From assembly GCA_020630525.1 (NCBI GenBank), contig JAHDBF010000004.1, positions 1 through 33,312 on the forward strand: a DNA stretch of 33,312 nt, read 5' to 3'. The notes beneath the pieces were generated by a model that saw nothing but the letters and a program-made list of their open reading frames with translations, searched no databases and was not told the origin of the DNA. The position numbers and the translations under genes were made by a program. The stretch comes from Saprospiraceae bacterium (GTDB lineage: Bacteria > Bacteroidota > Bacteroidia > Chitinophagales > Saprospiraceae). The number at the start of each line of letters is the position of its first letter. Positions within the stretch are counted from its first letter, which is position 1. This document shows positions 1 to 20,060 of the stretch, in pieces.

Positions 1-3000
1 TCGTACTTAGCTGTACTGATGACATCCCTGATCCTGTTGACCTAACAGCTACTGACGATTGCGATCAGAACTTCCCGCAAACGGTTACCCCTATCGTAAA
101 TCAAAATGGTGATGGTTGCTCTGCCGACATTATTATTACTAGAACTTATGAAGCTATGGACGATTGTGGAAATGTTTCTTCTCCACCTCTCGTCCAAACC
201 ATCATTATTGCTGCTGATATGGATGCGCCAATATTAGATATGTCTAATCTTATGGATGTAACTTTAAGTTGTACTGATCCTATTCCTCCTGCTGAAGATA
301 TTATGGCAACTGACGACTGTGATCCTAACTTTCCGCAAAATATCACCCCTGTCGAAGATCAAAGCGGCGATGGTTGCTCGGCCGATATTATCATTACTAG
401 GACTTATGAAGCTATTGATGCTTGTGGAAATTCTACCGGACCTATCGTACAAACCATTACCATAACGGCAGATACCGAAAACCCTGTTATTGATACTCCT
501 AATACAATAGATGATGTTTTATGTACTGAACCATTGCCTAATCAAGAAGAATTGTCTGCAACAGATGATTGTACATCTGACATTACTGTTACCGCTTCTG
601 TTGATAATTTTGTAGAAAATCCTTGCAATGGTTATCAAGTAACATATAGATGGATTGCAATGGATGATTGTGGAAACACTGATGAAGTTAGCCAAACATT
701 TAATGTGAATGGTGACTTAGAAGATCCTGTGTTTGATAATCTTCCTGCTCCTATTGCTGATATCAACTGTACTGATCCGCTGCCTAATCAAGAAGAATTA
801 ACGGCTTCTGACGACTGTACTGCTGACATTACCGTAGAGGCAACTGTGGATGATTTTATCGTAGATTTGTGTGGCGGATATAGTATTACCTATAGATGGA
901 CGGCAACGGATGACTGTGGTAAAATGGCTGAAACAACCATCACTTTTAATGTCTTACCAGATACCGAAGGGCCAACTTTTGACAATGAACCTTCAACCAT
1001 CGGTGACTTAAATTGTGGAGATCCTGAACCTACTCCTGAAACATTGAATGCTTCTGATGACTGCGATGACGATATTGAAATTACTACAGAAGTAACTTCT
1101 GATCCTGAAGACATCTGTAATGGATACGCTGTTACTTTCACTTGGACAGCAACAGATGATTGTAACAATGAAGCAATTACTTCTACTAGCTTTATGTATC
1201 TCCCAGATACTGAAGCACCAGAATTGACCATTCCTGATGATGAAACTGTAGATTGTAATAGTGTCCCTCCTTTAGGTACTGCTACTGCCATCGACAATTG
1301 TGACCTCAATCCAATAGTAAACTTCATTGAAGAAATTAATAATTCTGCAGATGGATGTCCATATACTATTGAAAGATCATGGCAAGCTGAAGATGTTTGT
1401 GGAAACTTAAGCGAAATTCTAACACAAACCATTACTGTTACCGATGATGAAGAACCAGAAATACTCAATGTACCAAGCAATATTATTGTAGAATGTTATC
1501 TAGACATTCCTGCTACTATTCCAGAATTAAATTGGATAGACAATTGCTCTGCTGGTGGAACAGTTTCTGGAACAGAAGACCCTTCTTCTTTTGACATAGA
1601 TTGTAATGGTGGTTCTATAACCAGAACCTGGGAAATAACTGACGATTGTGGTAATACGACTACTGAATCTCAATTAATTGAAATAAGACCTAAATCACAA
1701 GTTGATTGGACTGACATTTTACCCGTTGACATTACTATAAATTGTGACGAAAATGCCCCTACCTTAATTGACTTAAATTACGCTAACACTAATACAGGTA
1801 GCTGTGCTGAATCAGGATTTGTTTTAGGTTTTGATGAAGGTGGGGATTTAATCACTTGCGGTGATGAAAAAATATATTCCTGGACTTTAGATGAAGACCC
1901 TAGCATATGTTTAAATGGTCTTTTCCATGCTATAACCATTTCTGTTCAAGATTTAGAAGATCCTGTTTTTGTAAATATGCCTACTGATGTAATCTTTGAT
2001 TGCTTTACTGATGTACCAGCTCCTATGGATTTAGAATGGACGGATAATTGTGCACCTGGAGGGTTCGTAAGTCCACTTGATGATGGAATTATTGATGATT
2101 GCGATGGAGGTACCATCATTAGAACTTGGGAAGCTATGGACGATTGCGGAAATGCCATCTCCCACTCACAAGAAATTACGGTTTCTGCCATTCCTAGACC
2201 TCAATGGACTTCTTCTTTACCTGTGGATATTACCATAGATTGTGGTGAAGATCCTCCCGCATTTTTAGACCTCTCTTATTCTAATCTAGTAACTAATCCT
2301 GGTTGTCTGGAAGAAGGGTTAATAAGCCCTGAAGAGAATGGCGCACTAGATCAACCTGGTGATCAACTAACATTAACTTGGGAATATGAATCAAATTGCG
2401 GAAACATTCTTGACCACATTCAAGTAATTACTGTTGGAGATATACCGCCAACAACCATCACTGGATCTACTTCGTTCTGCCCAAATTCTAGTACTACACT
2501 TGGCGTCGCAGATGATTATGAAGAATACAATTGGTCAGTAGGTTCAACGCTTTCAGAAATTGAAGTCTCAACTCCTGATTTTTACTCAGTTACCGTAACT
2601 GATGAAAACGGCTGTACCACTTCTACTGAAATTGAAGTAACCATCGAAAATGAATTATTTCCTATCATAACTGGAGAAGAAATTCTTTGTGTTGGAAATT
2701 CTACAATATTAGATGTAGGATCTGGTTTTGATGAATATGAATGGAATGAAGGATCTACTTCTTCTAGCATTGAAGTTTTTGGCGGAGACGAATATATCGT
2801 TACCGTAACTGATGATTCTGGTTGTCAAGGTACTTCTGCTTTTATTGTAACTGAAGTATTTCCTACCGAAGCTCCTGATCTAGGCAGTGGCCTATTCTGT
2901 GAAAACGAAACTGCCATTCTTGATGCAGGTCCTGATTTTGACAGTTATGAATGGAGTAATGGCGCTAATACGCAAGACAATATTATTACTTTCAATGGCG

Positions 3001-6000
3001 AATATAGCGTTACCCTTACTGATGAAAATGGGTGTATTTCTTATGCAAGTATTGATGTTGAATTTCTACTATTACCTGAACCAGAAATTATCATCGATGG
3101 AGAGTTTTGTAATGGCTCTGATGTGGATTTAGAAACCACTGAATCTTATGACCTTTATGAATGGTCTTCAGGCGGTCAAGCAACTAGTATAACTGTAAAT
3201 GAAGCTGGACAATATTTTGTCACCGTAACTGATTTTGATGGTTGTACTGGAGTTACCTCAATCGAAATTTCAGAATTGGCCGCCGTGGATGTTAACATAG
3301 AAGGCTCTAGCAGTTTCTGTCCTGGAGGATTTACTACTTTAAGCGCTGGAGATTGGGAAAGCTATGCGTGGTCAAATGCTGAAAATACACAGTCAATTAA
3401 CGCAGATGCTGAAGGTACTTATACCGTCACAGTTACCAATGAAAATGGATGTGAAGGTACTGCTTCTATCGAAGTAAGTTTACAAAGTTCTTTAAACCCT
3501 AGTATTTCAGGACCTACTGTTATCTGTCCTAATCAGTCTATCATCCTAGATGCAGGAACAGGTTTCAGTGAATACGAGTGGAGCGATAATTCAACTGGTC
3601 AAACACTTGAAGTAAATACAGCCGGAACATACTCTGTAAATGTTACCGATATTTCTGGTTGCTCGGGATCTACTGAAATAACCATTACTGATGCAACACC
3701 AGAACTTGTCGAAATTTCTGGAATGTTGGAATTTTGCGAAGGTACTTTTACTACGCTTGAAGCAACTGGAAATTGGCAAAGCTATGAATGGTCTAATGAG
3801 GCAAATGGATCTTCTATTCAAGTATTAGATAATGACAATTACTCAGTTACTGTTACTGATAATAATGGTTGTACTGCTAGCTCAACTGTTACAACCAATG
3901 CTCAATCTGCACCATCTCCTATAATTACTGGTGTTATGGATTTTTGTCAAGGAGAATCGATTACAATCTCTACCATGAATGCGTATGATGCTTACGAATG
4001 GAGTAACAATATTAATACTCAAGAAAATACCATTAACGCTGCAGGAACATATACCATCACAGTTACTGACAACTTAGGATGTACTGGCACTGCCACTACA
4101 ACAATAAATGTTTTCAATCCTGAACAAGTAGAAATTCTTGGATCTATCACTTTTTGTGTGGGATCTTCTACAACGCTAGATGCAGGATCAGATTTTTCAA
4201 ATTGGAGTTGGTCTACTAGTGAATCTACTCAGATTATAGAAGTAAATACTGAAGGAATGATTTCTGTTAGTGTCACTGATGCCAATGGTTGCAGTTCTTC
4301 AACAGCAGTAAATGTAACAGAGGAAACAACTTTATCTATCAATGTATTAGGCCAACCAAATATTTGCCCCGGAGGAAGCTCAACACTTTCTGTTGGAAAT
4401 TTTGGAATGTACAATTGGGAAGATCCTGATGGAAATACTTTTGACACACCCACCATTGATGCCAGTACTCCTGGAACATATATGGTTACCGTTACTGATG
4501 ATGATGGATGTATCGGTAACGGGTCTTTTGATCTAGGATTAAATGCAGTGCCTATGCCTACAATTAGTGGAGACAATGACATTTGTCAAGATGCTTTTAC
4601 TACGCTTACTTTAGATCAAGACTATAGTAGTTACGAGTGGAGCACGCAAGACCTAACGCCTAGTTTGATCGTTACCGAAACTGGAACATATGAAGTTACC
4701 GTTACTGATGCCAATGGTTGTACTGGTGTTACTGACTTCTCTGTTACACTGCATCAAAACCCAACAATTACTATTGATGGTGGTAATCAGTTCTGTCCAG
4801 AAGGTAATATTGATTTATCTGTCGAAGATATTTATAACGATTATGCTTGGAGCAATGGCGAAAGTACTGCTTCTATTACTACTGACATCATTGGTTTATA
4901 TGAACTTACTGTTACGGACCAATTTGGTTGTACCGGAAGTTCTGCGATCAATATCACAAACTATGTCGTAAATCCTAATCTCATCGGGGGATCTACTTCT
5001 TTTTGTACTAATTCTTCCACTACCCTTGATGGTGGAGACGAGTATATTGCTTGGAGTTGGTCTACAGGAGATATGACACAAACTATTTTAGTCGACACAG
5101 AAGGTGAATACACCGTTACGGTAACTGATCAAAACAATTGTACCAGTAGCAGTACTGTAACAGTTACTGAAGAAAGTTCCTTATCTCCTTCGATTACTGG
5201 AGATTTAAGTTTCTGTATCGGCGAAACAGGAACACTTAATGGTGGTGAATTTTCATCTTGGAGTTGGACTAGCCCTAATGGAACTTTTGACACTCAAGAA
5301 ATAGAAATTACTGAAGGTGGAACATACACTTTACTTGTCACTGACGCTAGTGGTTGTTCTGGTTCTGGGTCTGTAGAAGTTATGGTTTTCGATTTACCTT
5401 CTCCTCAAATAGTTGGTGACTTTGGTATTTGTCCTGGTCAAGAAACTACGCTTTCTCTTGATGGATCATTCTTAAGCTATGAATGGAGCAATGGTGAACA
5501 GACTCCAACGATTATAACTGATACACCTGATTTATATGCAGTCACTGTTACTGACATTAATGGCTGTATTGGTTCTACTGAAATGCAAGTAACGCAAGAC
5601 CCTATTCCTGACGTACAAGTGATTAATACAAATTGTGCTGATGATGGACTTACTTATGATATAACATTTAGTTCTGACGGAGATGTTTTCGAAGCAAACA
5701 ATAACGAACTTGATGTAGTCGACAATAACGATGGCACTTTCTCAATATTACAAATTGACACTTCAATAACTGTATCTATATTTGTATCAAACAGCATTAC
5801 AACTTGTGAAGGCAATTATGAAATTAATCCTCCTAATTGTGGTTGTGGTGCAATAGCTGATATCGGCTCAGGAATCCTAACTTGTGAAACTTTAACCGTT
5901 GTTTTAGGTGGCGGAAATACTTCAGTAGGTCCTGACTTTACGATTGAATGGTTTGATGAAAATGGAAATCCTATTGGCAATACTCCTGAGCTTATGGTTA

Positions 6001-7628
6001 TGGATCCAGGAATGTACACAATGGTAGTTACAGACTTGGTATTAGATTGTGAGGATACTGCTAATTATTTTGTAGAAGCAAATCAAGATCCTCCTCTTGC
6101 GCTAATTTCTGTAGATCCTAGTAACATTATTGACTGTAGTGTAGAGAGCGTTTTCTTATCTGTGGATGATCCTCAACCGGGAATAGTCTATAGTTGGGAA
6201 ATTGACGATTATATTTTACCTAATGAATTAACTATTGAGATTTCTAATACGGCGGACGTTACGCTTATTGCGTTAGACACATTCACACTTTGTAGTTCTA
6301 TGGCTGTTGAAAATATAACTAGTGGCGAAGACTTCCCTGCGGTCACATTTGAACAACCATTACAATTAAATTGTAATAATCAATCAGTTATCATTGATGC
6401 ATCACAAGAAACTGTTGTAGGAGATAGTATTGTACAACAATGGTTTGACGAAAATATGAACCCTATTGTCAATGCAAATACTACTATCCTAGAGGTGGAA
6501 GAACCAGGTGTCTATTTCCTTCAAAATACAGATATTGTAAGTGGTTGTGAAGTGATAGAATCTATTACCGTAACAGAAAATACTACAGAACCAGAAGTAG
6601 ATGCTGGACAAGATGGTTTATTACCTTGTGATGGCAGTGGAACACAATTAAGTGCTTCGATAATAAGTGCATCTAGTAATGATGTTTCGGTAAGTTGGAC
6701 ATTAGATGGCAGCTCAATAAACAATGCAAGCGATGACCTAAATCCAACTTTCAATCAACCAGGCATGTATTTCATAACTGCAATTGATAATGCAAATGGA
6801 TGTATAGCAACAGATAGTGTAAATGTAGAACTATTGGGAGACCAACCATTTGGTTTTGATTTTGAATTGGCTATCCCGCCATGTGGTTCTTATGAAGATG
6901 GAGAAATTGTAATTAATGAAACTTTTGGAGGAGTTGGTCCATACGAATATACCATTAATGGCATCAATAGCAATGCTAGTACTTTCAATAATTTATCAGC
7001 AGGAACATATGATATTCAAGTAACGGATAGTAACGGATGTGTATATGCTGAGTCATTTGAATTACCAGAAGGGAATGAAGTTTCTGTACAAGCTGACCCT
7101 AATAGTTTTATTTTTGCCAATGACGAAGAAGATGTAGTAAATCTTATTACCAATATTTCTGAAGAAAGTAATTATACTATCATATGGGATAACGAAGAAG
7201 GTGTATCATGTACAGATTGTTTAACAGGAATAGTATTGAGTCCAGAAACATCTCAAGATTACATGGTTACCATAATAGATGAAAATGGATGTAGTGCTGT
7301 TACAACGATAAGGGTAACAATCCAAAATATTATCGACATATACATTCCTACGGTATTTACTCCAGACATTCAAGGAGAGAACCAATACTTCACGATGTTT
7401 TCTGATGATAATATCGTTACCATAACCAGTTTTAGAATTTACGATCGTTGGGGAGAATTGGTATTTAATACTATAGGGAACATTGTTCCTAATGATCCAG
7501 TTTTGGGTTGGGATGGAACTTTTAGAGGACAAGATGCATTACCTGGAGTATACGTTTATGTGATAGAGCATGTTGATTTAAATGGAAATGTTGGCATTGA
7601 AAGTGGAGATATTTCATTGTTGAGATAG
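1..7628 (+). CDS. Giant secreted adhesin, SprB/CHU_C type (5'-truncated by window edge)
   Basis: The track starts this ORF at an internal ATG (156), but the frame is open from base 3 (VLSCTDDIP...), so the true start lies left of the window. The visible part has about ten cysteine-rich HYR-like domains (to about 2450), then 15 tandem Ig/PKD-like modules of ~70 aa (2451-5612; pattern FC...TTL...Y-W...Y-VTVTD-NGC). A Cys-rich region follows, then a SprB-like repeat (about 6850-7065) and a gliding-motility-associated C-terminal domain (IDIYIPTVFTP...YDRWGE...GVYVYVI, 7332-7625). Proteins of this build are exported by T9SS and anchored at the cell surface, where SprB-like members act as gliding adhesins. 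Many paired cysteines suggest disulfides. It is a paralogue of the 25841-33229 gene. The ligand is unknown. Confidence 0.9.
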   Translation, partial: VLSCTDDIPDPVDLTATDDCDQNFPQTVTPIVNQNGDGCSADIIITRTYEAMDDCGNVSSPPLVQTIIIAADMDAPILDMSNLMDVTLSCTDPIPPAEDIMATDDCDPNFPQNITPVEDQSGDGCSADIIITRTYEAIDACGNSTGPIVQTITITADTENPVIDTPNTIDDVLCTEPLPNQEELSATDDCTSDITVTASVDNFVENPCNGYQVTYRWIAMDDCGNTDEVSQTFNVNGDLEDPVFDNLPAPIADINCTDPLPNQEELTASDDCTADITVEATVDDFIVDLCGGYSITYRWTATDDCGKMAETTITFNVLPDTEGPTFDNEPSTIGDLNCGDPEPTPETLNASDDCDDDIEITTEVTSDPEDICNGYAVTFTWTATDDCNNEAITSTSFMYLPDTEAPELTIPDDETVDCNSVPPLGTATAIDNCDLNPIVNFIEEINNSADGCPYTIERSWQAEDVCGNLSEILTQTITVTDDEEPEILNVPSNIIVECYLDIPATIPELNWIDNCSAGGTVSGTEDPSSFDIDCNGGSITRTWEITDDCGNTTTESQLIEIRPKSQVDWTDILPVDITINCDENAPTLIDLNYANTNTGSCAESGFVLGFDEGGDLITCGDEKIYSWTLDEDPSICLNGLFHAITISVQDLEDPVFVNMPTDVIFDCFTDVPAPMDLEWTDNCAPGGFVSPLDDGIIDDCDGGTIIRTWEAMDDCGNAISHSQEITVSAIPRPQWTSSLPVDITIDCGEDPPAFLDLSYSNLVTNPGCLEEGLISPEENGALDQPGDQLTLTWEYESNCGNILDHIQVITVGDIPPTTITGSTSFCPNSSTTLGVADDYEEYNWSVGSTLSEIEVSTPDFYSVTVTDENGCTTSTEIEVTIENELFPIITGEEILCVGNSTILDVGSGFDEYEWNEGSTSSSIEVFGGDEYIVTVTDDSGCQGTSAFIVTEVFPTEAPDLGSGLFCENETAILDAGPDFDSYEWSNGANTQDNIITFNGEYSVTLTDENGCISYASIDVEFLLLPEPEIIIDGEFCNGSDVDLETTESYDLYEWSSGGQATSITVNEAGQYFVTVTDFDGCTGVTSIEISELAAVDVNIEGSSSFCPGGFTTLSAGDWESYAWSNAENTQSINADAEGTYTVTVTNENGCEGTASIEVSLQSSLNPSISGPTVICPNQSIILDAGTGFSEYEWSDNSTGQTLEVNTAGTYSVNVTDISGCSGSTEITITDATPELVEISGMLEFCEGTFTTLEATGNWQSYEWSNEANGSSIQVLDNDNYSVTVTDNNGCTASSTVTTNAQSAPSPIITGVMDFCQGESITISTMNAYDAYEWSNNINTQENTINAAGTYTITVTDNLGCTGTATTTINVFNPEQVEILGSITFCVGSSTTLDAGSDFSNWSWSTSESTQIIEVNTEGMISVSVTDANGCSSSTAVNVTEETTLSINVLGQPNICPGGSSTLSVGNFGMYNWEDPDGNTFDTPTIDASTPGTYMVTVTDDDGCIGNGSFDLGLNAVPMPTISGDNDICQDAFTTLTLDQDYSSYEWSTQDLTPSLIVTETGTYEVTVTDANGCTGVTDFSVTLHQNPTITIDGGNQFCPEGNIDLSVEDIYNDYAWSNGESTASITTDIIGLYELTVTDQFGCTGSSAINITNYVVNPNLIGGSTSFCTNSSTTLDGGDEYIAWSWSTGDMTQTILVDTEGEYTVTVTDQNNCTSSSTVTVTEESSLSPSITGDLSFCIGETGTLNGGEFSSWSWTSPNGTFDTQEIEITEGGTYTLLVTDASGCSGSGSVEVMVFDLPSPQIVGDFGICPGQETTLSLDGSFLSYEWSNGEQTPTIITDTPDLYAVTVTDINGCIGSTEMQVTQDPIPDVQVINTNCADDGLTYDITFSSDGDVFEANNNELDVVDNNDGTFSILQIDTSITVSIFVSNSITTCEGNYEINPPNCGCGAIADIGSGILTCETLTVVLGGGNTSVGPDFTIEWFDENGNPIGNTPELMVMDPGMYTMVVTDLVLDCEDTANYFVEANQDPPLALISVDPSNIIDCSVESVFLSVDDPQPGIVYSWEIDDYILPNELTIEISNTADVTLIALDTFTLCSSMAVENITSGEDFPAVTFEQPLQLNCNNQSVIIDASQETVVGDSIVQQWFDENMNPIVNANTTILEVEEPGVYFLQNTDIVSGCEVIESITVTENTTEPEVDAGQDGLLPCDGSGTQLSASIISASSNDVSVSWTLDGSSINNASDDLNPTFNQPGMYFITAIDNANGCIATDSVNVELLGDQPFGFDFELAIPPCGSYEDGEIVINETFGGVGPYEYTINGINSNASTFNNLSAGTYDIQVTDSNGCVYAESFELPEGNEVSVQADPNSFIFANDEEDVVNLITNISEESNYTIIWDNEEGVSCTDCLTGIVLSPETSQDYMVTIIDENGCSAVTTIRVTIQNIIDIYIPTVFTPDIQGENQYFTMFSDDNIVTITSFRIYDRWGELVFNTIGNIVPNDPVLGWDGTFRGQDALPGVYVYVIEHVDLNGNVGIESGDISLLR
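3..2450 (+). repeat. HYR-like domain array of giant adhesin 1
   Basis: About ten protein-level repeats of 78-90 aa, separated by D-x-E-x-P linkers. Each has a buried cysteine pattern (V-x-C...DDC...DDCGN). Two early units share a GDGCSADIIITRTYEA block. The units at 486-728 and 729-974 share DPLPNQEEL and look like a tandem duplication. Assignment to the HYR/Ig-like fold comes from the pattern only. Confidence 0.75.
2451..5612 (+). repeat. 15-module Ig/PKD-like tandem array in giant adhesin 1
   Basis: There are 15 consecutive modules averaging 70.3 aa (3162 nt in total). Each has a first Cys in an FCxxxxTTL-like strand, a central aromatic (YEWS), a G-x-Y-x-VTVTD strand and a second Cys in NGC. 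Modules 8-11 (3918-4766, 283 aa) and 12-15 (4767-5612, 282 aa) resemble each other in order, forming a four-module super-repeat. Confidence 0.85.
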
Positions 7629-7729: not shown

Positions 7730-8725
7730 TTATGGCGTACATCCACCTATTTTCGCTTCAAAATTTTCTGTACATTCAAATCCTTGATTTAACACAACAC
7801 ATTCGCCAGCATCATAAATAGCTCCTCCAGCATTTACTGTTGTAGTTCCGCTGGATTCAATAATTTGGCTTGCAGTATAATTATTGTTAGGCATATTAGG
7901 ACCTATATTAGACACTACGGTTTCGTATGGACACGGTAAATCTATCGCATTACTAAAAAGACAAAATTCCATATCTTGACCATTCAATCCTTGGTTGTAC
8001 AGTATCTGTAGGTGATATTCTTCATTTGTTGTAAGTCCAGTAAAAATCGCATTTGTAGGTGCAGTAATATTTACAATCTGACCACATTGCAACTCATTCC
8101 CGCCATTGTCAGGGCAGCCTTCATAAATTGCATAATAAGCTAGAACTCCGGGTCCACTATTCAATTCTATTTCTATAGAAGTGTCGGTTGCATAGAATGA
8201 GTACCATAAATCTCCCCAAGTAGCTATTGTTCCAGAAGTACAACTCGGTGGATTGCCAGAGGAGGTTCCATTTAATGTATTAAAATTCAAGGTTGTACAC
8301 GACATTGATGTAACTTCTACAGGCAATGCACTATTGCATTCATTGTTTTCTGGATATATACAGTTATAATTAATGACAGCAGTGGCAACCTCATTTATAG
8401 CTGCACATGATAAATTTGAACTAATAACAAAAAAGTCAATATCAAAACTACCTGCTGATCCTATCAAATTTATATCAATATCAAAGCTGACTGTTCCAGA
8501 AGTTATATCAATAAATGGAGGTGAAGAGTAAGGCACATTACTCAATGTTACACCTGTTGGGAGACTATTGGCAATAAATACTGAACCAGTAAATCCACAA
8601 TCAAAAGTAAAGGTAACAGATGTATTTCCACATCCGAAAAGTGAAACATCTGGAACTACACTCAGAGCGATAGCAGTATTCTGAATGAAAAATGACAACA
8701 ACAATGGCAATATAATTCTATACAT
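7730..8725 (-). CDS. Secreted beta-sandwich protein with 3-coathanger-type C-terminus
   Basis: 331 aa. Residues 1-20 form a signal peptide (MYRIILPLLLSFFIQNTAIA). Next comes a Cys-containing beta-rich domain. A pre-peptidase-like beta-sandwich (about 118-258) follows, with NECNSALPVEV, WGDLWYSFYAT, AIYEGCPDNGG and EEYHLQILY strands of a kind common in Bacteroidota surface proteins. The last ~60 residues (ASQIIESSGTTTVNAGG...LNQGFECTENFEAKIGGC) match the '3-coathanger stack' style C-terminus, ending in Gly-Cys plus two residues. This is probably an export or surface-retention domain; the esterase at 20155 has the same kind of ending. No catalytic motif is visible, so function is unknown. The gene is convergent with giant adhesin 1 and divergent from 8829. 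Confidence 0.75.
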   Translation of the reverse strand: MYRIILPLLLSFFIQNTAIALSVVPDVSLFGCGNTSVTFTFDCGFTGSVFIANSLPTGVTLSNVPYSSPPFIDITSGTVSFDIDINLIGSAGSFDIDFFVISSNLSCAAINEVATAVINYNCIYPENNECNSALPVEVTSMSCTTLNFNTLNGTSSGNPPSCTSGTIATWGDLWYSFYATDTSIEIELNSGPGVLAYYAIYEGCPDNGGNELQCGQIVNITAPTNAIFTGLTTNEEYHLQILYNQGLNGQDMEFCLFSNAIDLPCPYETVVSNIGPNMPNNNYTASQIIESSGTTTVNAGGAIYDAGECVVLNQGFECTENFEAKIGGCTP

Positions 8726-9271: not shown

Positions 9272-9302
9272 AAAGCCCGTCAAATTTATTTTGACGGGCT
9301 TT
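9272..9302. terminator. Bidirectional intrinsic terminator (copy 1 of a repeated hairpin)
   Basis: A perfect 13-bp stem AAAGCCCGTCAAA / TTTGACGGGCTTT has a 5-nt loop and flanking A and T tracts. It lies between the convergent genes ending at 9248 (+) and 9307 (-). It is nearly identical, loop included, to the hairpin at 14258-14290. Confidence 0.9.
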
Positions 9303-9306
9303 TGTG

Positions 9307-10176
9307 TTAGTATTTTCTATAGTTTTCTCTGTACCATATACGCCAGTCTTCCTGAGTCATTGTATTCCTAATTACAATTCTGTCATTCATTTTTGTGGCT
9401 TTGGTTTTTCCTAATTCTAAAGCATTTTTATTTACTAATTCGGCAATTCGAATTGCCTCTTTAGCACAAGATGCGTTTGGTGGAATCAGCAACAATTTAT
9501 TGATTGCCTTATCCATTTTATATTCATTACCACTATTGGCCAATATTTCTGCTTCTTGAATAATTGACGCACAAGCATATTCGGTATGGCTATTTACAAT
9601 GGCTTCTTCCATTTTTTCTTTCTCGCTTTCACAAGTTTGGATCATGTCATAATAAGACAAAAGGGAATACGCTTTTATATAATCGTTTTTATCTAATTGC
9701 TTTTGTACAATGGTGGAAACTGTAGAACAATTAGTTAGTGATTTTTCCATAAAAGAATTTATAAACATTTCTAATTTTTCATAATGTTTACTATCTCTAA
9801 TTATAGAAGTTCCTAATTTAGATTTTAAATCTTTTTCAGATTTTCCTTTACACTTAATCACTAAATCAATGTCTTCGCTTTGGACACCCTCTGCATCAAT
9901 CTTATATGTCATTACTACTTCGGAAGTTGTGTAACTATCCATTCCATTGATAACATGCATTTTACCGAAAGTAGCATTTGTAGTCAATACAAAAAATGCA
10001 CCTTCTGTTATTGAAAAATCTTTTTTTAGTCTGCTGGTTAATTTGCTTTTAACAGACTTAGCTGCATATCTATCATCTTCTATATTTATATTCCCTAGTG
10101 AAAGTGCAGGACCTGAGTCTTGACAAAAAATGAATGAACTACAAAATAAAAAACCAAGCGTCAATATATATTTCAT
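9307..10176 (-). CDS. Exported protein of unknown function, last gene of envelope operon
   Basis: 289 aa with a signal peptide (MKYILTLGFLFCSSFIFCQ). The mature part begins with a mixed alpha/beta segment (ALSLGNINIEDDRYAAKSVKSKL...) that resembles the opening of TolB/CsgG-like small domains. A helical, cysteine-bearing region follows (NDYIKAYSLLSYYDMIQTCESEKEKMEEA), looking like TPR-type helices, and the tail is basic and aromatic (WRIWYRENYRKY). I do not recognise a named family. It lies 10 nt downstream of the DUF6175-like gene on the same strand, so it is very likely co-transcribed and part of the same envelope system. Confidence 0.65.
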   Translation of the reverse strand: MKYILTLGFLFCSSFIFCQDSGPALSLGNINIEDDRYAAKSVKSKLTSRLKKDFSITEGAFFVLTTNATFGKMHVINGMDSYTTSEVVMTYKIDAEGVQSEDIDLVIKCKGKSEKDLKSKLGTSIIRDSKHYEKLEMFINSFMEKSLTNCSTVSTIVQKQLDKNDYIKAYSLLSYYDMIQTCESEKEKMEEAIVNSHTEYACASIIQEAEILANSGNEYKMDKAINKLLLIPPNASCAKEAIRIAELVNKNALELGKTKATKMNDRIVIRNTMTQEDWRIWYRENYRKY

Positions 10177-10186
10177 ATGGATAATT

Positions 10187-11062
10187 TTATAAACTAGAAA
10201 GTGTGATAGTAATTGCAGATCCAGTAATAGTACGGTCTACTTTTACTCCCTTTTCTTTTAAGAAATTTCTTAGTTGGATAACGAATTTAGAGATTCGGTA
10301 ATTCTTTCCTGATTCATCTTTTAGTGGCACTTTTATTTGATCAAAAACTATTTTAGTTGCACTAGAACCTTGCATATGGTAGTAATTGTTGTAGGCATTT
10401 TCTTCTACCCACTCTTCAATAATCTCTGATAAATAATATCCACTATCATCTACTTCACTATCCAGATCTAAATCTGATCCTATTTCAATTCCTACTTCCA
10501 TAGTTACTGTTTTACCATTTTCAATGATAAGATTAAACTTCTCTTGGATAGTATTTAATAAATTGTCTATTTCTGCTTCGATTGCTTTCTGCGCTAATTT
10601 CTCATAATTATCAGTCTTAAATCTTGGGCTAGTAGAAACTTTATTGGCTAGTGATTCTCCAGAAAATGCATCATAAGCAGTAAGAATACAAGTAACACTA
10701 TTACCTGAAGGACTGTAATCTCTATTGGCTTCTACCTCTATATAAATATCTGCTCCCGACATTTTGATAACTTCATCCTTTAAAGATAATTCTTGGTCTT
10801 CGGTTAATGCTTCCGAATTTTGCAATTGCTTTAACTTTGCTCTAAAATCAATGGTATTTACTCCACGCTGATCAAAAGCTTCTTTTACTTTAGTAATGGC
10901 AATTCTATTCAACTCACTATATTCATACATTTGGCGTGTACTCTGACCTTCCTTAGCAAAAGGTATTGCCATTATCGTTGGTTGAATCGTTGGTTTTTCA
11001 TCTTGAGCAATTGCGCTGAAACAAAAGAAAATACTTAAAAAAGTAAATAGTATATTTTTCAT
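10187..11062 (-). CDS. DUF6175-like exported protein
   Basis: 291 aa with a signal peptide (MKNILFTFLSIFFCFSAIAQ). The opening of the mature protein (QPTIMAIPFAKEGQSTR...RIAITKVKEAFDQRGVNTIDF) fits my recollection of the Bacteroidota DUF6175 family, whose biochemical role is unknown. The pattern of a short beta strand (IMAIPF), helix, then GADIYIEVEA and a strand with TAYDAFSGESLA is like the CsgG/TolB-N/FlgT fold, where 'V-DA-tG-v' marks the variable-stress strand. The C-terminal half adds a second alpha/beta domain ending in TITLSSL. It is the fourth gene of the operon, 53 nt after the lipoprotein gene and 10 nt before the last gene. Confidence 0.6.
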   Translation of the reverse strand: MKNILFTFLSIFFCFSAIAQDEKPTIQPTIMAIPFAKEGQSTRQMYEYSELNRIAITKVKEAFDQRGVNTIDFRAKLKQLQNSEALTEDQELSLKDEVIKMSGADIYIEVEANRDYSPSGNSVTCILTAYDAFSGESLANKVSTSPRFKTDNYEKLAQKAIEAEIDNLLNTIQEKFNLIIENGKTVTMEVGIEIGSDLDLDSEVDDSGYYLSEIIEEWVEENAYNNYYHMQGSSATKIVFDQIKVPLKDESGKNYRISKFVIQLRNFLKEKGVKVDRTITGSAITITLSSL

Positions 11063-11115
11063 AATAAGGTTTATCAGTTTATAAATATTAATTTGATCTT
11101 AAAATCTATCCAAAG

Positions 11116-11568
11116 CTATAATCCAAACTTTTTTGCAGCTCCTTCTGCTTGTAGATAATTCCGCAAACTTTTTAAGTCTATTTTTATAATTTGCTCAATC
11201 ATATGTACTCCTCCAGAATTACTTGATCCGTTGGTGTAAGAATCCATAACAAACTTTGTGTATCCTTGATTCTCTAGCAGTTGTTTAAAAAGAGAAGGAT
11301 TCGCGTTTATAGCTTTAGTTTCATTTGGGATCATCGGAGATTCTTGGTTTGTGTTTGGTATTCCTTTAAAAATTAAATTTTCAAAAGCATTTCGTTCTGC
11401 GTGATAAGCAGCTTTACCTAATGACTCACCGCGTGCTTGACTACTCAAAACTACAATGGAATTTTCGTGACTTACTGCATTTACTTCTCCTGTTCTTTGA
11501 TAAGGAATTATAGTTTTACTACATCCTATCGCTATTAAAAGAGTAAACATAACTATTAGTATTCTCAT
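11116..11568 (-). CDS. LPP20-like lipoprotein
   Basis: 150 aa. The N-terminus MRILIVMFTLLIAIGC-SK is a lipoprotein signal peptide with the lipobox cysteine at position 16. The body (SIVVLSSQARGESLGKAAYHAERNAFENLIFKGIP) has the strand-plus-Ala-rich-helix pattern of LPP20/FlgP-like domains, in which a conserved exported beta strand is followed by an 'A-A-...-A' helix. A later segment (FKQLLENQGYTKFVMDSY) continues this pattern. It would sit in the outer or inner membrane facing the periplasm. It is the third gene of the operon, 9 nt after the 542-aa gene. Such lipoproteins can act as partners of CsgG/FlgT-like proteins; a role here is inferred from context. Confidence 0.6.
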   Translation of the reverse strand: MRILIVMFTLLIAIGCSKTIIPYQRTGEVNAVSHENSIVVLSSQARGESLGKAAYHAERNAFENLIFKGIPNTNQESPMIPNETKAINANPSLFKQLLENQGYTKFVMDSYTNGSSNSGGVHMIEQIIKIDLKSLRNYLQAEGAAKKFGL

Positions 11569-11577
11569 TTTGGTATA

Positions 11578-13206
11578 TTAAATTTTAACTATAAATTTTA
11601 TTTTTTCATTTGCTTGAATAGCCTGATACAGTTCTTTTTCGCCTTTGGATATTTTTATGTTAGCTATGGATTCGGTCAATTTTTTTCCGACAAAAGCCTT
11701 ACCTATTTCTTCTTCTCTAGTGATTGATCTTCCGCCTACTTGTTCTTCTTTTAATATAACAATTCTAAAAGTTGCAATATTATCAAAGCTAAAAGGACTA
11801 TAGGCAAGAATCTTTTGCACTTTACCTTTTTTCTCTTTTAATATTTCTAAAATCTTGATGTTCTCATCCATAATATCCATACATAGATTTATGGTTTCTG
11901 GACCACCTGTAGACCCTAGTAAGTTTGCGATTCCCTTACTTTCTTTTTTATTCATTTGAGAAACTCTGCCAGTGGTAACATCTGTCGCTTTCATTCCAGC
12001 TTTAGTTTTTTCAAATAAATAATTAACTCCTTCTTGTTTATCTTGAATTGCAGACATATCGAAATCGATAAACTTTTCATCAGTGTATTGACTTGTAAAA
12101 TATCTAGTTGGACCATCAAAATTTCTTTCAATAACCTTGATGCTTGAAAGTCCCAGTAATATTTTTTCTAAATATTTATTACACATAAAACAATCACCTT
12201 TGATCTGTGCTCTTTTTATTTCTCTTTCTCCTTGATTTGCCCGTTTTATTAAGTTTGTGTTTCTAACAAAAACAACATCATCATTAGCTTCTAATGCCTC
12301 AGCTATTTTATTTTTAGAAAACAAGATTGGCTTTACCATAGTCTGATCTGCCGTAACTTCTTTGGCAATGATATATCCTATTCTGTCATAATGTTGAAAT
12401 TCTCCAAATTTGACTTTTCGAAAAACTTCTAGTAATTCATTTTTAACCAAATTTTCACTGGCGTTAGCATCTATATAAAATTCCTTTAACTTGCCTTTAC
12501 TATTCAAATCATAGTTAACCATTTTCCATAATCGCTCATCATCTTTCGATTTTAGAAAACTTGCGATGGAGCTCATATCTGCTCCCACATTTTCTGCAAC
12601 TTCAGTATAATGATTTACAATTTTTGCATTATATTCTTTATTGATTTTCTTCATTATTGCTTTGAAAGAATCGGAATTGTTTTTCTGTAGCTTTTTTGGA
12701 TTCTTACTACCGAAATAATCTTTGAAATTTTTAATTTCTAATTTTGAACCCAATTCGTAAGTTTTTGTATCTAGTGATTTTGATGCTAGGACTTCAGAAG
12801 TTGCCAAATCCACAACTTTATACATAGGTCTTGCTCCTATGTTATAATCTAAATACATATTGGTCACCTTACCAGTTGTATCTACTTTAAAGCTAGGAGT
12901 ACATATTTCATTCCACTGCAAATTAGTTACAAAGTTAATCGCTGTTGTAATCGGTTGTTCCGCTCGCGAACTATCATTGTATTCTTCCAATGGAATTGGA
13001 GCACTTTCAGGATCTCCATTCCAGCTATAGAAATCTGTATAAATTGGTTTCTGTTTATTATACTTTTCATGAAATTTCTTCAACAGAATTTTGTCATACT
13101 TTTCTCCTACTTCTTCTGAGTTTAAGAGAATAGCAGATCCAAAATTTTGGGCGCTGATAGATTGGCTACTAAATAATATTAGAATAGCAAAAAGGAATTG
13201 TTTCAT
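11578..13206 (-). CDS. Exported protein with degenerate CsgG-like C-terminal half
   Basis: 542 aa with a signal peptide (MKQFLFAILILFSSQSISAQ). Residues ~20-300 are of unrecognised type. They contain VDTTGKVTNMYLDYN and YDLNSKGKLKEFYIDANAS, two similar 'K-G-K-v-x-x-x-Y-x-D' strands that suggest an internal duplication. From about residue 330 the sequence aligns with the neighbouring 255-aa CsgG-like protein: IKVIER...FID...AQ/DKQEG-Y...V-DVTTGRV, and at the C-terminus LKEEQVGGRSITREEEIGKA against LSEEKVGNRIIERKDIIGTA. A CxxC (CFMC) lies at the junction. It is the second gene in the operon, 15 nt after the first. A partner or scaffold role for the CsgG-like protein is inferred, not shown. Confidence 0.6.
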   Translation of the reverse strand: MKQFLFAILILFSSQSISAQNFGSAILLNSEEVGEKYDKILLKKFHEKYNKQKPIYTDFYSWNGDPESAPIPLEEYNDSSRAEQPITTAINFVTNLQWNEICTPSFKVDTTGKVTNMYLDYNIGARPMYKVVDLATSEVLASKSLDTKTYELGSKLEIKNFKDYFGSKNPKKLQKNNSDSFKAIMKKINKEYNAKIVNHYTEVAENVGADMSSIASFLKSKDDERLWKMVNYDLNSKGKLKEFYIDANASENLVKNELLEVFRKVKFGEFQHYDRIGYIIAKEVTADQTMVKPILFSKNKIAEALEANDDVVFVRNTNLIKRANQGEREIKRAQIKGDCFMCNKYLEKILLGLSSIKVIERNFDGPTRYFTSQYTDEKFIDFDMSAIQDKQEGVNYLFEKTKAGMKATDVTTGRVSQMNKKESKGIANLLGSTGGPETINLCMDIMDENIKILEILKEKKGKVQKILAYSPFSFDNIATFRIVILKEEQVGGRSITREEEIGKAFVGKKLTESIANIKISKGEKELYQAIQANEKIKFIVKI

Positions 13207-13221
13207 ATTTAATTTTATTGG

Positions 13222-13989
13222 TTATTTACTTAATGATCCATAAAGCTGCTTTCCGCTATTTAATGCAGCATTTATTTCTTCTCCCCCATTATTTACTTTT
13301 AATGTTGAGAAGTTACCATCTTGAACTTCGGAAATTTTTGCGGTTCCTATTATGTCTTTTCTTTCGATAATTCTATTTCCTACTTTTTCCTCCGAAAGAA
13401 TATAGATGTCATATTTATCATCCTTTTTTGCTCTTTGGTTATACCCTATGGCAAACAACAACTCTTTAGCCGCAGCTTTCTTCTTTTTATCAATACATCT
13501 TAGGACTTCATACCTAATTTCAAAACAATTAATATTAATCTTATCGACAATTTTATTTATTGAAGCCTTCATGTCCTTTGGTGTACCAAGAATGCTTTTC
13601 TTAAGTTCAACTGACTCTTCTGAAATTACTGTTCCTTTTGCTACATCATAAACTTTTACAGACAACAACTTGTCTTTCTTATAATACTTTGGATAGTAAC
13701 AATAATCAAAGCCTTCTTGCGCTCCTTGTGCTACAATATATCCATCAATAAATTCTTCAGACTTTTGACGATCTTGTTCATCTGCAATTAATTGACTATT
13801 TACTTTATCAATTACAATAAATCTATCATCACTAGCATAAAAACTTACAATATAACTACTAACATCATCCAATAAACTAGAAGAAGAAGGGTCTCGCTCA
13901 ACATCATAAATAGCGATTCTATGCTGACCTAATAAAGACGTTGTACAAAATAAAAATATCAAGAAAGTAAAGATTCTCATAGCTTTCAT
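13222..13989 (-). CDS. CsgG-family-like exported protein, first gene of envelope operon
   Basis: 255 aa with a signal peptide (MKAMRIFTFLIFLFCTTSLLGQ). The mature protein starts RIAIYDVERDPSSSS and continues DRFIVIDKVNSQLIADEQ, EFIDGYIVAQGAQEGFDYCYYPKYY and LLSVKVYDVAKGTVI. This strand/helix order is seen in CsgG/LpoB/FlgT-like proteins ('F-VIDR...GkllGAdy...vrvvDv-tG-i'). CsgG itself forms the curli export pore, but many relatives are only periplasmic assembly factors. No lipobox cysteine was seen, unlike canonical CsgG. The C-terminal ~90 aa (YDIYILSEEKVGNRIIERKD) form an extra domain shared with the next gene. A possible -7 element (TATTTTTG, minus strand, 14006-14013) lies just upstream of the start. 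Confidence 0.55.
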   Translation of the reverse strand: MKAMRIFTFLIFLFCTTSLLGQHRIAIYDVERDPSSSSLLDDVSSYIVSFYASDDRFIVIDKVNSQLIADEQDRQKSEEFIDGYIVAQGAQEGFDYCYYPKYYKKDKLLSVKVYDVAKGTVISEESVELKKSILGTPKDMKASINKIVDKININCFEIRYEVLRCIDKKKKAAAKELLFAIGYNQRAKKDDKYDIYILSEEKVGNRIIERKDIIGTAKISEVQDGNFSTLKVNNGGEEINAALNSGKQLYGSLSK

Positions 13990-14314
13990 TTAATTAATTA
14001 AAAATCAAAAATAACTAAAAATTCAAAAAATTCTGTGCTGCTAACTTAAATGCAATGATAATGAAATTAATTTTGGGACATTCTAGAGTTTGTTTAATGA
14101 TTTTGTGTGAAAAATATTCATTAATAAGAATCAATAAATAGTGTTTTATGACCTGTTTTATTTAGATAAAAGGCTATAAAATATTGAGTCATCATTCACA
14201 ACATTAGTACATGCTCCATTAAGATTATTAATTTTTTATTGTCAAATCAATAAGAATAAAAGCCCGCCAAATTTATTTTGACGGGCTTTTTTACTTCTAT
14301 TACTAAGAAAAATA
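13990..14314. other. AT-rich intergenic region
   Basis: These 325 nt lie between the start of the envelope operon and the stop of the haloperoxidase-like gene. They hold the hairpin terminator at 14258-14290 and, presumably, the operon promoter. I see no ORF, RNA gene or strong repeat otherwise. Confidence 0.6.
14258..14290 (-). terminator. Intrinsic terminator (copy 2 of the repeated hairpin)
   Basis: A 14-bp stem AAAAGCCCGCCAAA / TTTGACGGGCTTTT has the same ATTTATT-type loop region as the hairpin at 9272. The single C/A mismatch on the plus strand becomes a G-U wobble in minus-strand RNA. The hairpin would therefore fold better for the minus-strand gene that stops 24 nt away at 14315. Confidence 0.85.
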
Positions 14315-16004: not shown

Positions 16005-16514
16005 ATGTCTACACATCCGCTTTGTCAAGAACAAACATTTTCTACCATTTTTCGTACGTACGCTGATACGGTTTTCAATTTTGTATATTATAAATCTGGA
16101 GATAAAGAACAAGCCAAAGACATCACACAAGAAGCATTTATGAAACTTTGGCAAAACTGTGCCTCAGTAACACTTGAATCTGCAAAGGGCTATGTATTTA
16201 TGACTGCAAGAAATAAAATGTTCAACAATTTTGAACATAAAAAAGTACAATTAAAATTTGCCAATCTCAACCATTCTGAACGAACAAACGAAAACCCAGA
16301 ATTTATTCTAGAAGTTAAAGAGTTACATCAAAAGATTGAAGAAGCAATTTCTAATTTACCAGAAAAGCAAAGAATCGTATTTTTACTAAGTAGAATAGAT
16401 AAACTGACATATAAAGAGATTGCAAAAATCTTAGACATAAGTAAGCAAGCGGTCGAGAAAAGAATTTATAATGCACTAGATACTATGAGAAAAATAAATA
16501 AAAACATTCGATAA
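16005..16514 (+). CDS. ECF RNA polymerase sigma factor, FecI-like
   Basis: 169 aa, the usual ECF length. Sigma region 2 spans about residues 11-75 (FSTIFRTYADTVFNFVYYKSGDKEQAKDITQEAFMKLWQN). It includes the DITQEAFMKLW core-binding/-10 recognition helix, with a linker after it. Region 4 spans about 115-162 (LPEKQRIVFLLSRIDKLTYKEIAKILDISKQAVEKRIYNAL), with a clear helix-turn-helix. It should direct RNA polymerase to the promoters of its own regulon, probably including the downstream receptor operon. The FecR gene starts 67 nt after its stop, the classic sigma/anti-sigma arrangement. The specific inducing signal is unknown. Confidence 0.92.
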   Translation: MSTHPLCQEQTFSTIFRTYADTVFNFVYYKSGDKEQAKDITQEAFMKLWQNCASVTLESAKGYVFMTARNKMFNNFEHKKVQLKFANLNHSERTNENPEFILEVKELHQKIEEAISNLPEKQRIVFLLSRIDKLTYKEIAKILDISKQAVEKRIYNALDTMRKINKNIR

Positions 16515-16581
16515 AGTAGGTTATTTCTACACATAACTGTCTTTAAAATGTATTCCAAATAATGTCAAATATTCTAAAATA

Positions 16582-17454
16582 ATGATACATGATAAGATGC
16601 TACACAAGTGGTATAATAATACATTAACCGAAGATGAATTGAAAGAATTTAAATTAAGAGATGAATATGATGATCTAGTTAAAATAAAAGAAAATACTGA
16701 TCACCTTGAAACTCCTACATTTGATAAAGAAAAAATGTTGACTGCAATATTAAATGATTCTACTAAAAATAAACCGTCTAATGTCATCAAATTACATTGG
16801 TTTAAATATGCTGCTGCAATTACAATCTTAATTGCCTCAACTATTTTCTTTTGGCCAAATGATAAAATTACAAAGTTCAATACAAGTCACGGTGATTATG
16901 TCTCAGCAGAGTTTCCAGACAACTCTATTTTTGAACTACAAGGAAACAGTTCCTTGAAATTTGATAAAGAAACCTGGAGTCAAAAAAGAATAGTATTCCT
17001 TGAAGGAAATGCAATATTTGAAGTGGTAAAAGGACCTGAGTTTTTAGTAAAAACTCAAAATGGTGATGTACGTGTTCTAGGAACAAAATTCGAAGTAAAT
17101 GAAAGCATGGATACATTAGAAGTGAGCTGTTACGAAGGTAATGTAGAGGTGAATATATTCACAAAAAAAATAACAGAACAACTTTTGGCAAATGAAAAAC
17201 TATTATCAGTAGGCGAATCCACTATAATCCAAAAATCAGAATTGGTAAAACTAAAAAGTGTTACTTTAAATCAATTAATACAAGAATTACAACAGACTTT
17301 TGATGTTATTATTAACAAATCAAATATTAATATAAACGAAAAGCTAAGTTGCAATTTCCAAAAACAAAACTTAGCCAATGCCTTAGAGACAAGTATAAAA
17401 ACATTAGGAATAAATTATTCAATAGAAAATAACACAGTCACTCTAACCAAATAA
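16582..17454 (+). CDS. FecR-family anti-sigma factor / signal transducer with DUF4974
   Basis: 290 aa. A short cytoplasmic N-terminal part (MLHKWYNNTLTEDEL) would contact the sigma factor. A single transmembrane helix lies at about residues 74-91 (WFKYAAAITILIASTIFFW). A periplasmic FecR domain (about 103-195) contains GDYVSAEFPDNSIFELQGNSSLKF and VRVLGTKFEV...YEGNVEV. A C-terminal DUF4974 domain (about 224-290; VTLNQLIQELQQTFDVII...LETSIKTLGINYSI) has an STN-like fold. It probably holds or activates the 16005 sigma factor in response to the 17460 receptor. Its stop codon is 5 nt before that receptor's start, so translational coupling is likely. Confidence 0.9.
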   Translation: MIHDKMLHKWYNNTLTEDELKEFKLRDEYDDLVKIKENTDHLETPTFDKEKMLTAILNDSTKNKPSNVIKLHWFKYAAAITILIASTIFFWPNDKITKFNTSHGDYVSAEFPDNSIFELQGNSSLKFDKETWSQKRIVFLEGNAIFEVVKGPEFLVKTQNGDVRVLGTKFEVNESMDTLEVSCYEGNVEVNIFTKKITEQLLANEKLLSVGESTIIQKSELVKLKSVTLNQLIQELQQTFDVIINKSNININEKLSCNFQKQNLANALETSIKTLGINYSIENNTVTLTK

Positions 17455-17459
17455 AAATA

Positions 17460-20060
17460 TTGATTTCGGATTACAATAAAATATACTTTAGCTTTTTAAT
17501 AATATGCTCAATTGCCACAAAGTGCATTGCGCAATCAGCATATTTTGAGATTTTATACTCCAATATCTCACTAGCAGAAGTTATCGAAGATTTAGAAAAA
17601 AATCATCAATTATTATTTAGCTACAAAGATCAAGACATTGACAACATCAACATAGCATGTGAAGTAAAAACTGACAACCTTAATATACTTATCCAAGAAA
17701 TTCTTGAAGATAGTAATCTAGATTTCGAAATTGTAGATAACAATTTTATAATACTTAAAAACAATATTAAAGACTATAAAATCTGTGGCAATGTTTTTGA
17801 TGAATTAAGTCAAGTTCCTTTACCATATGCTTCCATTATTATTAATAAAACGACAAAGGGAACAAGTACTGACTCATTGGGCAATTTTGGTTTTATGCAT
17901 ACGTCGAAAGAAAATCAAAGTGTAATAGTAAGCTATGTAGGTTATGAAAAAAAAGAATTTCCTATTACCTCATTTAATAATAACTGCATAGATATCCCAC
18001 TTTCGATTTCAGAACAAAATGTCCCTTACCTAGTGATAAAAGATTACATAACAGACGGAATCACTCTTGACAATAACGGAAGTAGTACAAGTATTAGATT
18101 ACAAAGGGTTGGGCTGTTGGCTGGTCAGACAGATACCGATGTATTAAAAACCTTACAATTCTTGCCCGGAATAAATGCACCAAGTTCTAAGGCATCGGAT
18201 ACATATATCAGAGGTGGAACTCCAGACCAAAATTTAATAATCTGGGAAGATATTCCTCTTTATCATACCGCCCATTACTTTGGGATGATCTCAGCTATTA
18301 ATCCAAATATTGTAAAAAATATCGAAGTATACAGAGGTGGGTTTGGCGCAGAATATGGTGGAAAAATTGCAGGCGTAATTGATATTAAAGCTGATGATGA
18401 AAAAGATAAAAAACCTTATATAGGCATATCTTCAAATTTTATAAATAATGCCATATATGGAAAACAGTATGTAGATAAAAAGAAAAAAACCGCTTTTATA
18501 TTTTCAATCCGCCGATCATATGATGAATTATTTACCACTCCTACAATATTAAATATTAGTAGATTCAATCAACAAGGATTTATCGTAGGAGATAGAGACT
18601 TATTAGAATTGCCTGACAACATTAAAGTCAATAGTGATTTTAGTTTTCTTGATGGAAATATAAAATTGAGCAGTAGGATAAATAAAAAAAACAGAATAGA
18701 TTTTTCAGGTCTCTTCGTTCAAAATAATTTTGATGATCTCATTTTAGACAATAATAGAATGGAATCACAAAGAGATACATTCGAGTTATCAAATATTGGC
18801 GCTAGTGTAAATTGGGAATACAATTGGAGTAATAGAATTAAAAGTAAACTCAAATTAATTAACACAACTTATAATTACGATTATAATTATGTCATTCAAT
18901 CGGAACCACAACATACTGTCAGCTTATCAGGAGTTAAAAAGAATGAAATAACCGATCAACAAGTCTCTTATATTACAGATTATAAAACCAAGAAAAACAT
19001 GAACTTTTCTTTGGGATATCATTTTACCAATTATGATATAAAATATAAAATAAGCCAAACAAATAAAAATCAAAATGAACTTGACGACGACGCTGAATCT
19101 GAAGCAAATCTTCATGCGCTTTTTATAAAATATGACAACCCAATAAATAATATTTTAGGTATAAATCTAGGTTTGAGAAGTAGTTATTATAATTCAGACA
19201 AAAAATTCTACCTAGAACCACGAGTCCGTCTTGCAAAAGCAATTAATGATAATTTTTCATTAAGTTTTAACTACGGCAGACATTTTCAGTTTGCATCTCA
19301 AGTAATAGAATTTAAAGGAAGTGAAACTGGTTTGAGTTTGCCATTATGGGCATTGACCAGTAGATCTATCCCAGTCCAAAAAGCTGACCTTTTTCAACTA
19401 GGAACAATATTCGAAAAAAACAATTGGCTTATCGACCTGCAAATGTATCATCGCAAAACAAATGGAATTAGCAGTAGAGTTTATGATTTTGATTTTATTG
19501 AAGGTGGCGAGTCAGAAATAGGAAATGCGATTACAAATGGAATAGATGTTTTAGTTAAAAAAAGATTTTGGAAAGTAAGATCTTGGATCGCATACTCATA
19601 CAGTTATTCTAAACTTTCATTCAAAAGAATTAGATTTAAAGAATTTCCTGTTGATCACGACCAAAGACATGTTTTACAATGGTCAAACCAAATAAAAATC
19701 AATAGATTCCAGCTTGCAATCTCCTATAAGTTTAGTACTGGTCTTCCATACTCATTTGCAAACAACTTTGAGCAGGAGATGAATCAAAATGACTTTGAAT
19801 TAATATATGAAGGCATAAATAATTATAGACTTAAAAACATCCACGAAGTAAATTTTTCAGCACAATATCAACTGAATAAATCAGATAAAAAATGGAAAGC
19901 TTATTTGCTGTTTTCAATAACAAATTTATTAAACAGAAATAATATTTTCAATAGAGTTTATTATGTTGATAGCACTGCAAATCAAACACCACATATAGAA
20001 TTCAGACAAAAAGCAAATATGGTTTTTACACCTAATGTTTCTTTGAATTTTGAGTTTTAA
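17460..20060 (+). CDS. TonB-dependent outer-membrane receptor with N-terminal STN signalling domain
   Basis: 866 aa. It begins with a TTG codon; no ATG is available before the signal peptide (MISDYNKIYFSFLIICSIATKCIAQ). An STN domain (27-100; NISLAEVIEDLEKNHQLLFSYKD) is the part that signals to FecR. Next comes a carboxypeptidase-regulatory-like domain (107-190; ICGNVFDELSQVPLPYASIIINKTTKGTSTDSLGNF). The plug (about 205-315) contains IRGGTPDQNLIIWEDIPLYH and EVYRGGFGAEYGGKIAGVIDI, and a ~550-aa beta-barrel ends in an aromatic strand (VSLNFEF). It should bind a ligand and import it with TonB energy while reporting to FecR. No SusD partner is adjacent, so a siderophore-like or non-SusCD substrate is plausible. 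The ligand is unknown. Confidence 0.9.
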   Translation: MISDYNKIYFSFLIICSIATKCIAQSAYFEILYSNISLAEVIEDLEKNHQLLFSYKDQDIDNINIACEVKTDNLNILIQEILEDSNLDFEIVDNNFIILKNNIKDYKICGNVFDELSQVPLPYASIIINKTTKGTSTDSLGNFGFMHTSKENQSVIVSYVGYEKKEFPITSFNNNCIDIPLSISEQNVPYLVIKDYITDGITLDNNGSSTSIRLQRVGLLAGQTDTDVLKTLQFLPGINAPSSKASDTYIRGGTPDQNLIIWEDIPLYHTAHYFGMISAINPNIVKNIEVYRGGFGAEYGGKIAGVIDIKADDEKDKKPYIGISSNFINNAIYGKQYVDKKKKTAFIFSIRRSYDELFTTPTILNISRFNQQGFIVGDRDLLELPDNIKVNSDFSFLDGNIKLSSRINKKNRIDFSGLFVQNNFDDLILDNNRMESQRDTFELSNIGASVNWEYNWSNRIKSKLKLINTTYNYDYNYVIQSEPQHTVSLSGVKKNEITDQQVSYITDYKTKKNMNFSLGYHFTNYDIKYKISQTNKNQNELDDDAESEANLHALFIKYDNPINNILGINLGLRSSYYNSDKKFYLEPRVRLAKAINDNFSLSFNYGRHFQFASQVIEFKGSETGLSLPLWALTSRSIPVQKADLFQLGTIFEKNNWLIDLQMYHRKTNGISSRVYDFDFIEGGESEIGNAITNGIDVLVKKRFWKVRSWIAYSYSYSKLSFKRIRFKEFPVDHDQRHVLQWSNQIKINRFQLAISYKFSTGLPYSFANNFEQEMNQNDFELIYEGINNYRLKNIHEVNFSAQYQLNKSDKKWKAYLLFSITNLLNRNNIFNRVYYVDSTANQTPHIEFRQKANMVFTPNVSLNFEF

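Follow-up and report, generated by a model that had tools for sequence, protein, structure and literature searches.

A five-gene block between two near-identical terminators

The window analyzed here, a 33,312-nucleotide stretch of a Saprospiraceae bacterium genome, carries five consecutive genes, A to E, which run on the minus strand from position 13989 to position 9307 and are separated by gaps of 15, 9, 53, and 10 nt. Gene A (13222–13989, 255 aa) encodes an exported protein with a CsgG/TolB-N/LpoB-like domain and a FlgT-C-like barrel, and gene B (11578–13206, 542 aa) encodes an exported, enlarged paralogue of A with an additional N-terminal half; we refer to the family of these two proteins as G. 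The product of gene C (11116–11568, 150 aa) is predicted to be a lipoprotein and to adopt an SHS2-like fold. Gene D (10187–11062, 291 aa), the anchor of the module, encodes an exported DUF6175 protein, and the exported product of gene E (9307–10176, 289 aa) consists of an N-terminal domain and then a TPR-like region. An initial annotation had proposed five same-strand genes with gaps of 9–53 nt whose products are all exported. All five open reading frames are indeed present as proposed, and a hydrophobic signal sequence was recognized by eye at the start of each product, that of C including a lipobox.

Intrinsic terminators, both on the minus strand, border the block: one (9272–9302) lies immediately 3′ of gene E, and the other (14258–14290) ends the upstream PAP2 gene. 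These terminators are direct repeats, equally oriented and identical at 31 of 32 bases; the 22-nt core that they share has only these two copies in the genome even when up to two mismatches are allowed. With a terminator on each side, A to E constitute a discrete block. If they are read as one transcript, the operon promoter would be located in the intergenic region 13990–14257 of the minus strand; no Bacteroidota promoter consensus was found in this region upstream of A.

The rest of the window includes two giant open reading frames at 3–7628 and 25841–33229 (at least 2541 and 2462 aa, respectively), the first of which is rich in repeats and resembles a secreted adhesin. The gene at 7730–8725 encodes a probable type IX secretion system (T9SS) cargo protein bearing a GBD_T9SS_assoc domain and, at the C-terminus, a 3-coathanger stack domain. 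Consecutive genes for an ECF sigma factor, a FecR-type anti-sigma factor, and a large outer-membrane receptor-like protein occupy 16005–20060.

In a genome of the same genus (G837, locus L162), homologues of the two genes that flank the module are convergent neighbors, and the 82 bp between them contain one terminator-like hairpin and no module. Identity to the window proteins is 74% for the 139-aa gene product and 63% for PAP2. In the window genome the module sits between these same two genes, bordered by the two terminator copies; the flanking terminator repeat was found in none of seven relatives checked. The difference reflects either insertion of the module at this site or its loss from G837, the latter perhaps through recombination of the terminator repeats.

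Domain content of the encoded proteins

The assignment of D to DUF6175 was confirmed by a match to PF19672 with an E-value of 1.4e-78 and a score of 264.4 bits against a gathering cut-off of 23. We found no mention of DUF6175 in the literature that we searched, in agreement with the earlier suggestion that the system is undescribed. Since A, B, C, and E themselves yielded nothing useful in Pfam and NCBIfam scans, we scanned their families. PDB sequence searches with the A+B, C, and D profiles also found nothing.

A and B had been annotated as CsgG-like. Neither has a direct Pfam match, and their CsgG/FlgT-type character emerges from the wider family and from the predicted fold of A. Among 60 G relatives, the commonest Pfam match was LpoB (16/60; best E-value 5.5e-12), followed by CsgG (14/60; best 8e-13), FlgT_C (7/60), and FlgT_M (3/60). 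The AlphaFold2 (AF2) model of A (pLDDT 84) was matched most closely among PDB structures to the FlgT structure 3w1e, with an E-value of 1.5e-10 over 300 columns, and next to FlgT in the LPHT ring (8z5n; 1.1e-9), TolB, CsgG (1e-4), LpoB (7e-4), and PelC. The TM-scores of the model were low (0.34 against FlgT), probably because its two domains are placed differently. As modeled, A is laid out in two domains like the middle and C-terminal domains of FlgT; its CsgG-like domain starts right behind the signal sequence, with no N-terminal SHS2 domain of the kind found in FlgT. That B is an enlarged paralogue of A was borne out by an alignment of its C-terminal half with A residues 77–248 (29% identity, E 1.2e-4).

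The export-pore function that the initial annotation had considered fared less well. A carries no lipobox, and its AF2 strands at 96–103, 108–115, and 120–128, where CsgG has membrane hairpins, are only 8–9 residues long. These strands leave no room for CsgG-type hairpins, so that a membrane pore of the CsgG type is ruled out for A as modeled.

C, which had been called LPP20-like, bears that resemblance weakly. It has a lipobox (AIGC; a simple lipobox motif is present in 37 of 127 relatives), and its AF2 model (pLDDT 94) has the SHS2-like topology β-β-α, an insert at 69–106, and again β-β-α. In proteins of the FlgP/FlgT fold, ring formation is accompanied by an insert that separates the SHS2 helix from the strand after it (PMC12222027), and the insert of C sits at this same place, between its helix and the following strand; in C it is helical, while FlgP has a beta hairpin there. 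On the other hand, Pfam LPP20 matches neither the window C nor any of 69 C family members, and Foldseek matches of the model to FlgP (E 0.09), FlgT (0.33), and Lpp20 (0.55) are non-significant, all three ranking in the top thirty of 350,542 chains.

E, previously listed as unknown, gave no useful Pfam match of its own, but its relatives give it some identity: among 61 family members, TPR-type models match a minority, ARM_TT21 in 17 and TPR_19 in 6. A profile comparison between C and E was weak or unstable. That between D and G was unstable as well (94% probability in one run, at most 59% in another); the strand-helix patterns of D and G look alike by eye, and with the profile comparison so unstable we make no claim of a CsgG fold for D.

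Fusion variants connect several of these families. In distant Bacteroidota of other families (L132–L138), a protein of about 410–485 aa combines a C-like N-terminal part with a following DUF6175 domain. The gene after this fusion encodes a protein with a Pfam LPP20 match (E 7e-6 to 6e-10) and an E-like C-terminal part (E about 1e-5 to 4e-10). The C-D fusion together with its neighboring LPP20/E-like fusion supports physical contact between C and D and places the module among LPP20 systems, the link to true LPP20 being provided by the gene paired with the C-D fusion.

Conservation and distribution of the module

An alignment of D led to 80 named loci in GTDB genomes, which we pooled with loci from whole-genome searches. 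Iterated profiles of the five families were then mapped on 90 loci, with D recovered in 87, and neighbors were counted only at loci with a sufficiently long flank. D is immediately preceded by C in 82 of 84 loci and immediately followed by E in 77 of 80. In 46 of 49 well-flanked loci, G, C, and E all lie on the same strand as D and at most 7 kb from it. The conservation across Bacteroidota on which the initial annotation had staked its operon thus exists, and the five genes form one conserved unit whose order is kept across the phylum.

This order spans a long divergence. The 87 D genes come from many Bacteroidota families, with D protein identity falling to about 20%, and in a quick tree a very long branch splits them into two clades, each with several families. 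The first contains Saprospiraceae, Spirosomataceae, Barnesiellaceae, Rikenellaceae, and others, and the second Flavobacteriaceae, Rikenellaceae, Saprospiraceae, and others. The module gene order is kept in both; loci of the second clade often have two C genes and a G protein of 400–450 aa. Eight loci have immediately upstream of C a protein cluster that resembles a further diverged G, and G may thus be undercounted. In all five genes dN is far below dS, with dS saturated in most pairs. The order kept throughout the phylum, the low dN, and the position between two terminators together make the block more than a chance arrangement. The genes outside the module vary by lineage, and those that recur are mostly lineage-specific housekeeping genes, for example ribosomal protein genes in Flavobacterium.

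Several loci deviate from the common layout. In Neolewinella and another genome of the window's family (L037, L039, L020), the order is C-D-E-G with extra G genes downstream. At L101:8432–9998, the C region is split into four short open reading frames (116, 74, 86, and 75 aa) with a short G adjoining, perhaps reflecting decay or assembly errors. Just past E, a 492-aa exported protein recurs in five loci (L027:3107–4585, L028, L108, L109, and L111); it starts VTLTVSGQGKTLEAAKQSALRSA and resembles an LPP20 or FlgT-N domain.

The module is patchily distributed. D was found in 14 of 150 genomes of the window's order, in 19 of 393 genomes of the phylum (about 5% of the sampled Bacteroidota), and, above the cut-off, in 69 of 295 genomes of the order around genome G526 (about 23%); it was not found in 14 control genomes. 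Carriers include the gut genera Barnesiella, Alistipes, and Paraprevotella.

Flagellar, curli, and secretion markers in carrier genomes

The module had been described as lacking flagellar or curli genes around it, and this absence extends to the carriers. FlgH was detected in 0 of 38 carrier genomes, while CsgE is absent from 33 of the 38 and present in five. In the window genome we found neither CsgE nor a match to the CsgG family. PADLOC and PHROGs searches gave no matches. The T9SS marker PorV exceeded the cut-off in 35 of the 38 carriers. This apparent link to T9SS vanished against the base rate, as PorV was equally common without regard to the module (285 of 295 genomes of one order). Moreover, D occurred in two of ten PorV-negative genomes compared with 69 of all 295, and the distribution therefore gives no sign of a T9SS role. 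Carriers of DUF6175 without PorV above the cut-off (G474/G764, G535, G537, and G804) indicate that the module can exist without that marker.

Proposed function

From these data we consider it plausible, although we hold it tentatively, that the products of the operon build a non-flagellar ring or scaffold in the periplasm, held beneath the outer membrane. We infer the localization, oligomerization, partners, and function of the module from its domain content and from three lines of published work: the insert of the FlgP/FlgT fold described above, the H ring that Vibrio FlgO, FlgP, and FlgT form around the L ring (PMC6375700), and the outer membrane-associated motor ring of Helicobacter pylori, which protects the outer-membrane barrier (PMC11756786). 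In such a structure, C would be lipidated, sit on the inner face of the outer membrane and, like FlgP, oligomerize by means of its SHS2-type fold. A and B would form a collar resembling that of FlgT in the Vibrio H ring, D would dock directly on C, and E, through its TPR repeats, may connect the ring with a partner or with proteins bound to peptidoglycan. We prefer a ring or scaffold to an export pore because A has neither a lipobox nor membrane hairpins. Several points count against a ring. The fold matches of C to FlgP and Lpp20 are non-significant, its insert differs from that of FlgP, and the profile comparison of D with G was unstable. No machine that a ring would serve was found, and LpoB, TolB, and PelC have the same core domain with other roles.

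A more far-reaching and more doubtful proposal is that the module represents a new class of envelope machine, a Bacteroidota-wide, non-flagellar ring associated with the outer membrane and built from FlgT-like, SHS2-lipoprotein, DUF6175, and TPR parts. On this view, the flagellar H ring would be a relative serving another purpose.

Of the alternatives, regulation of peptidoglycan synthesis survives best and still appears unlikely. A and B would act like LpoB, activating a penicillin-binding protein from the outer-membrane side, with C, D, and E in co-regulatory roles. In its favor, LpoB is the most frequent Pfam match of the G family, its structures also appear among those that A resembles in fold, and a separate Bacteroidota cluster (L145) places LPP20 and a 435-aa protein beside a true LpoB. 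However, A carries no lipobox, its FlgT-C-like barrel is not part of the LpoB domain model (147 positions), the genes outside the module are generally not cell-wall genes, and a distribution of 19 in 393 genomes is patchy.

We give still less weight to a secretion collar or pore, in which A and B would build a ring of the CsgG or PelC type for the export of an amyloid or a polysaccharide. The CsgG matches in 14 of 60 relatives and the resemblance of A to PelC and to the CsgG pre-pore speak for it. Against it stand the missing lipobox and the short strands of A, the lack of CsgE and CsgG-family matches in this genome, and the lack of any substrate or synthase gene recurring beside the module. 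A and B may instead form a PelC-like funnel without membrane strands.

An accessory ring that reinforces type IX secretion or gliding machinery would accord with PorV in nearly all carriers (35/38), but we regard it as similarly improbable given that PorV is just as frequent irrespective of the module and that two of ten PorV-negative genomes have the module. Least likely of all is a stress or defense cassette, whose genes would come and go together as an accessory block and shield the envelope or stop an attacker. The patchy distribution, the module-free site in the congener, and the near-identical terminator repeats, unique in the genome, fit such a cassette, but PADLOC gave no matches, no recombinase adjoins the block, and gene order has been kept over long divergence under strong purifying selection.

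The module matters beyond this locus. It links DUF6175, a domain of unknown function, with the biology of FlgT and CsgG, and it points to a wider pool of envelope parts from which flagellar accessory rings may have been drawn. Because its gene order is fixed and it is present in culturable Flavobacterium species such as F. hibernum and F. pectinovorum, the module is directly testable.

Comparison with known systems

Among characterized systems, the Vibrio H ring resembles the module in having adjoining genes for a FlgT protein, a lipoprotein of the LPP20/SHS2 fold, to which C is a weakly similar candidate counterpart, and a further exported protein, and the two domains of A follow the plan of the FlgT middle and C-terminal domains. 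The differences are that module carriers have no flagella, that A lacks the FlgT N-terminal domain, that the module adds DUF6175 and the TPR protein E, and that the C family does not match Pfam LPP20. Whereas FlgT carries its SHS2 domain within the same protein, the SHS2-like domain here resides in a separate protein, C.

The G family has a core domain like that of the CsgG curli channel, but A lacks the lipid anchor and the two membrane beta-hairpins of CsgG and has an extra barrel, and the window genome has no CsgE or CsgG-family match. Likewise, the G family has a core like that of the PBP1b activator LpoB, while A differs from LpoB in its additional FlgT-C-like barrel and lack of a lipid anchor, and the module has no steady cell-wall neighbors. 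The exopolysaccharide funnel PelC has the core fold of A and is, moreover, a periplasmic ring without membrane strands; unlike A, it is a single-domain lipoprotein, and the Pel operon to which it belongs has no counterpart here. Finally, the cluster at L145:6050–9045, with a true LpoB (TIGR02722), LPP20, and the 435-aa protein, is another pairing of a CsgG-superfamily domain with LPP20 in one cluster. It differs from the module in having neither DUF6175 nor a FlgT-C barrel, and its LPP20 and LpoB are canonical.
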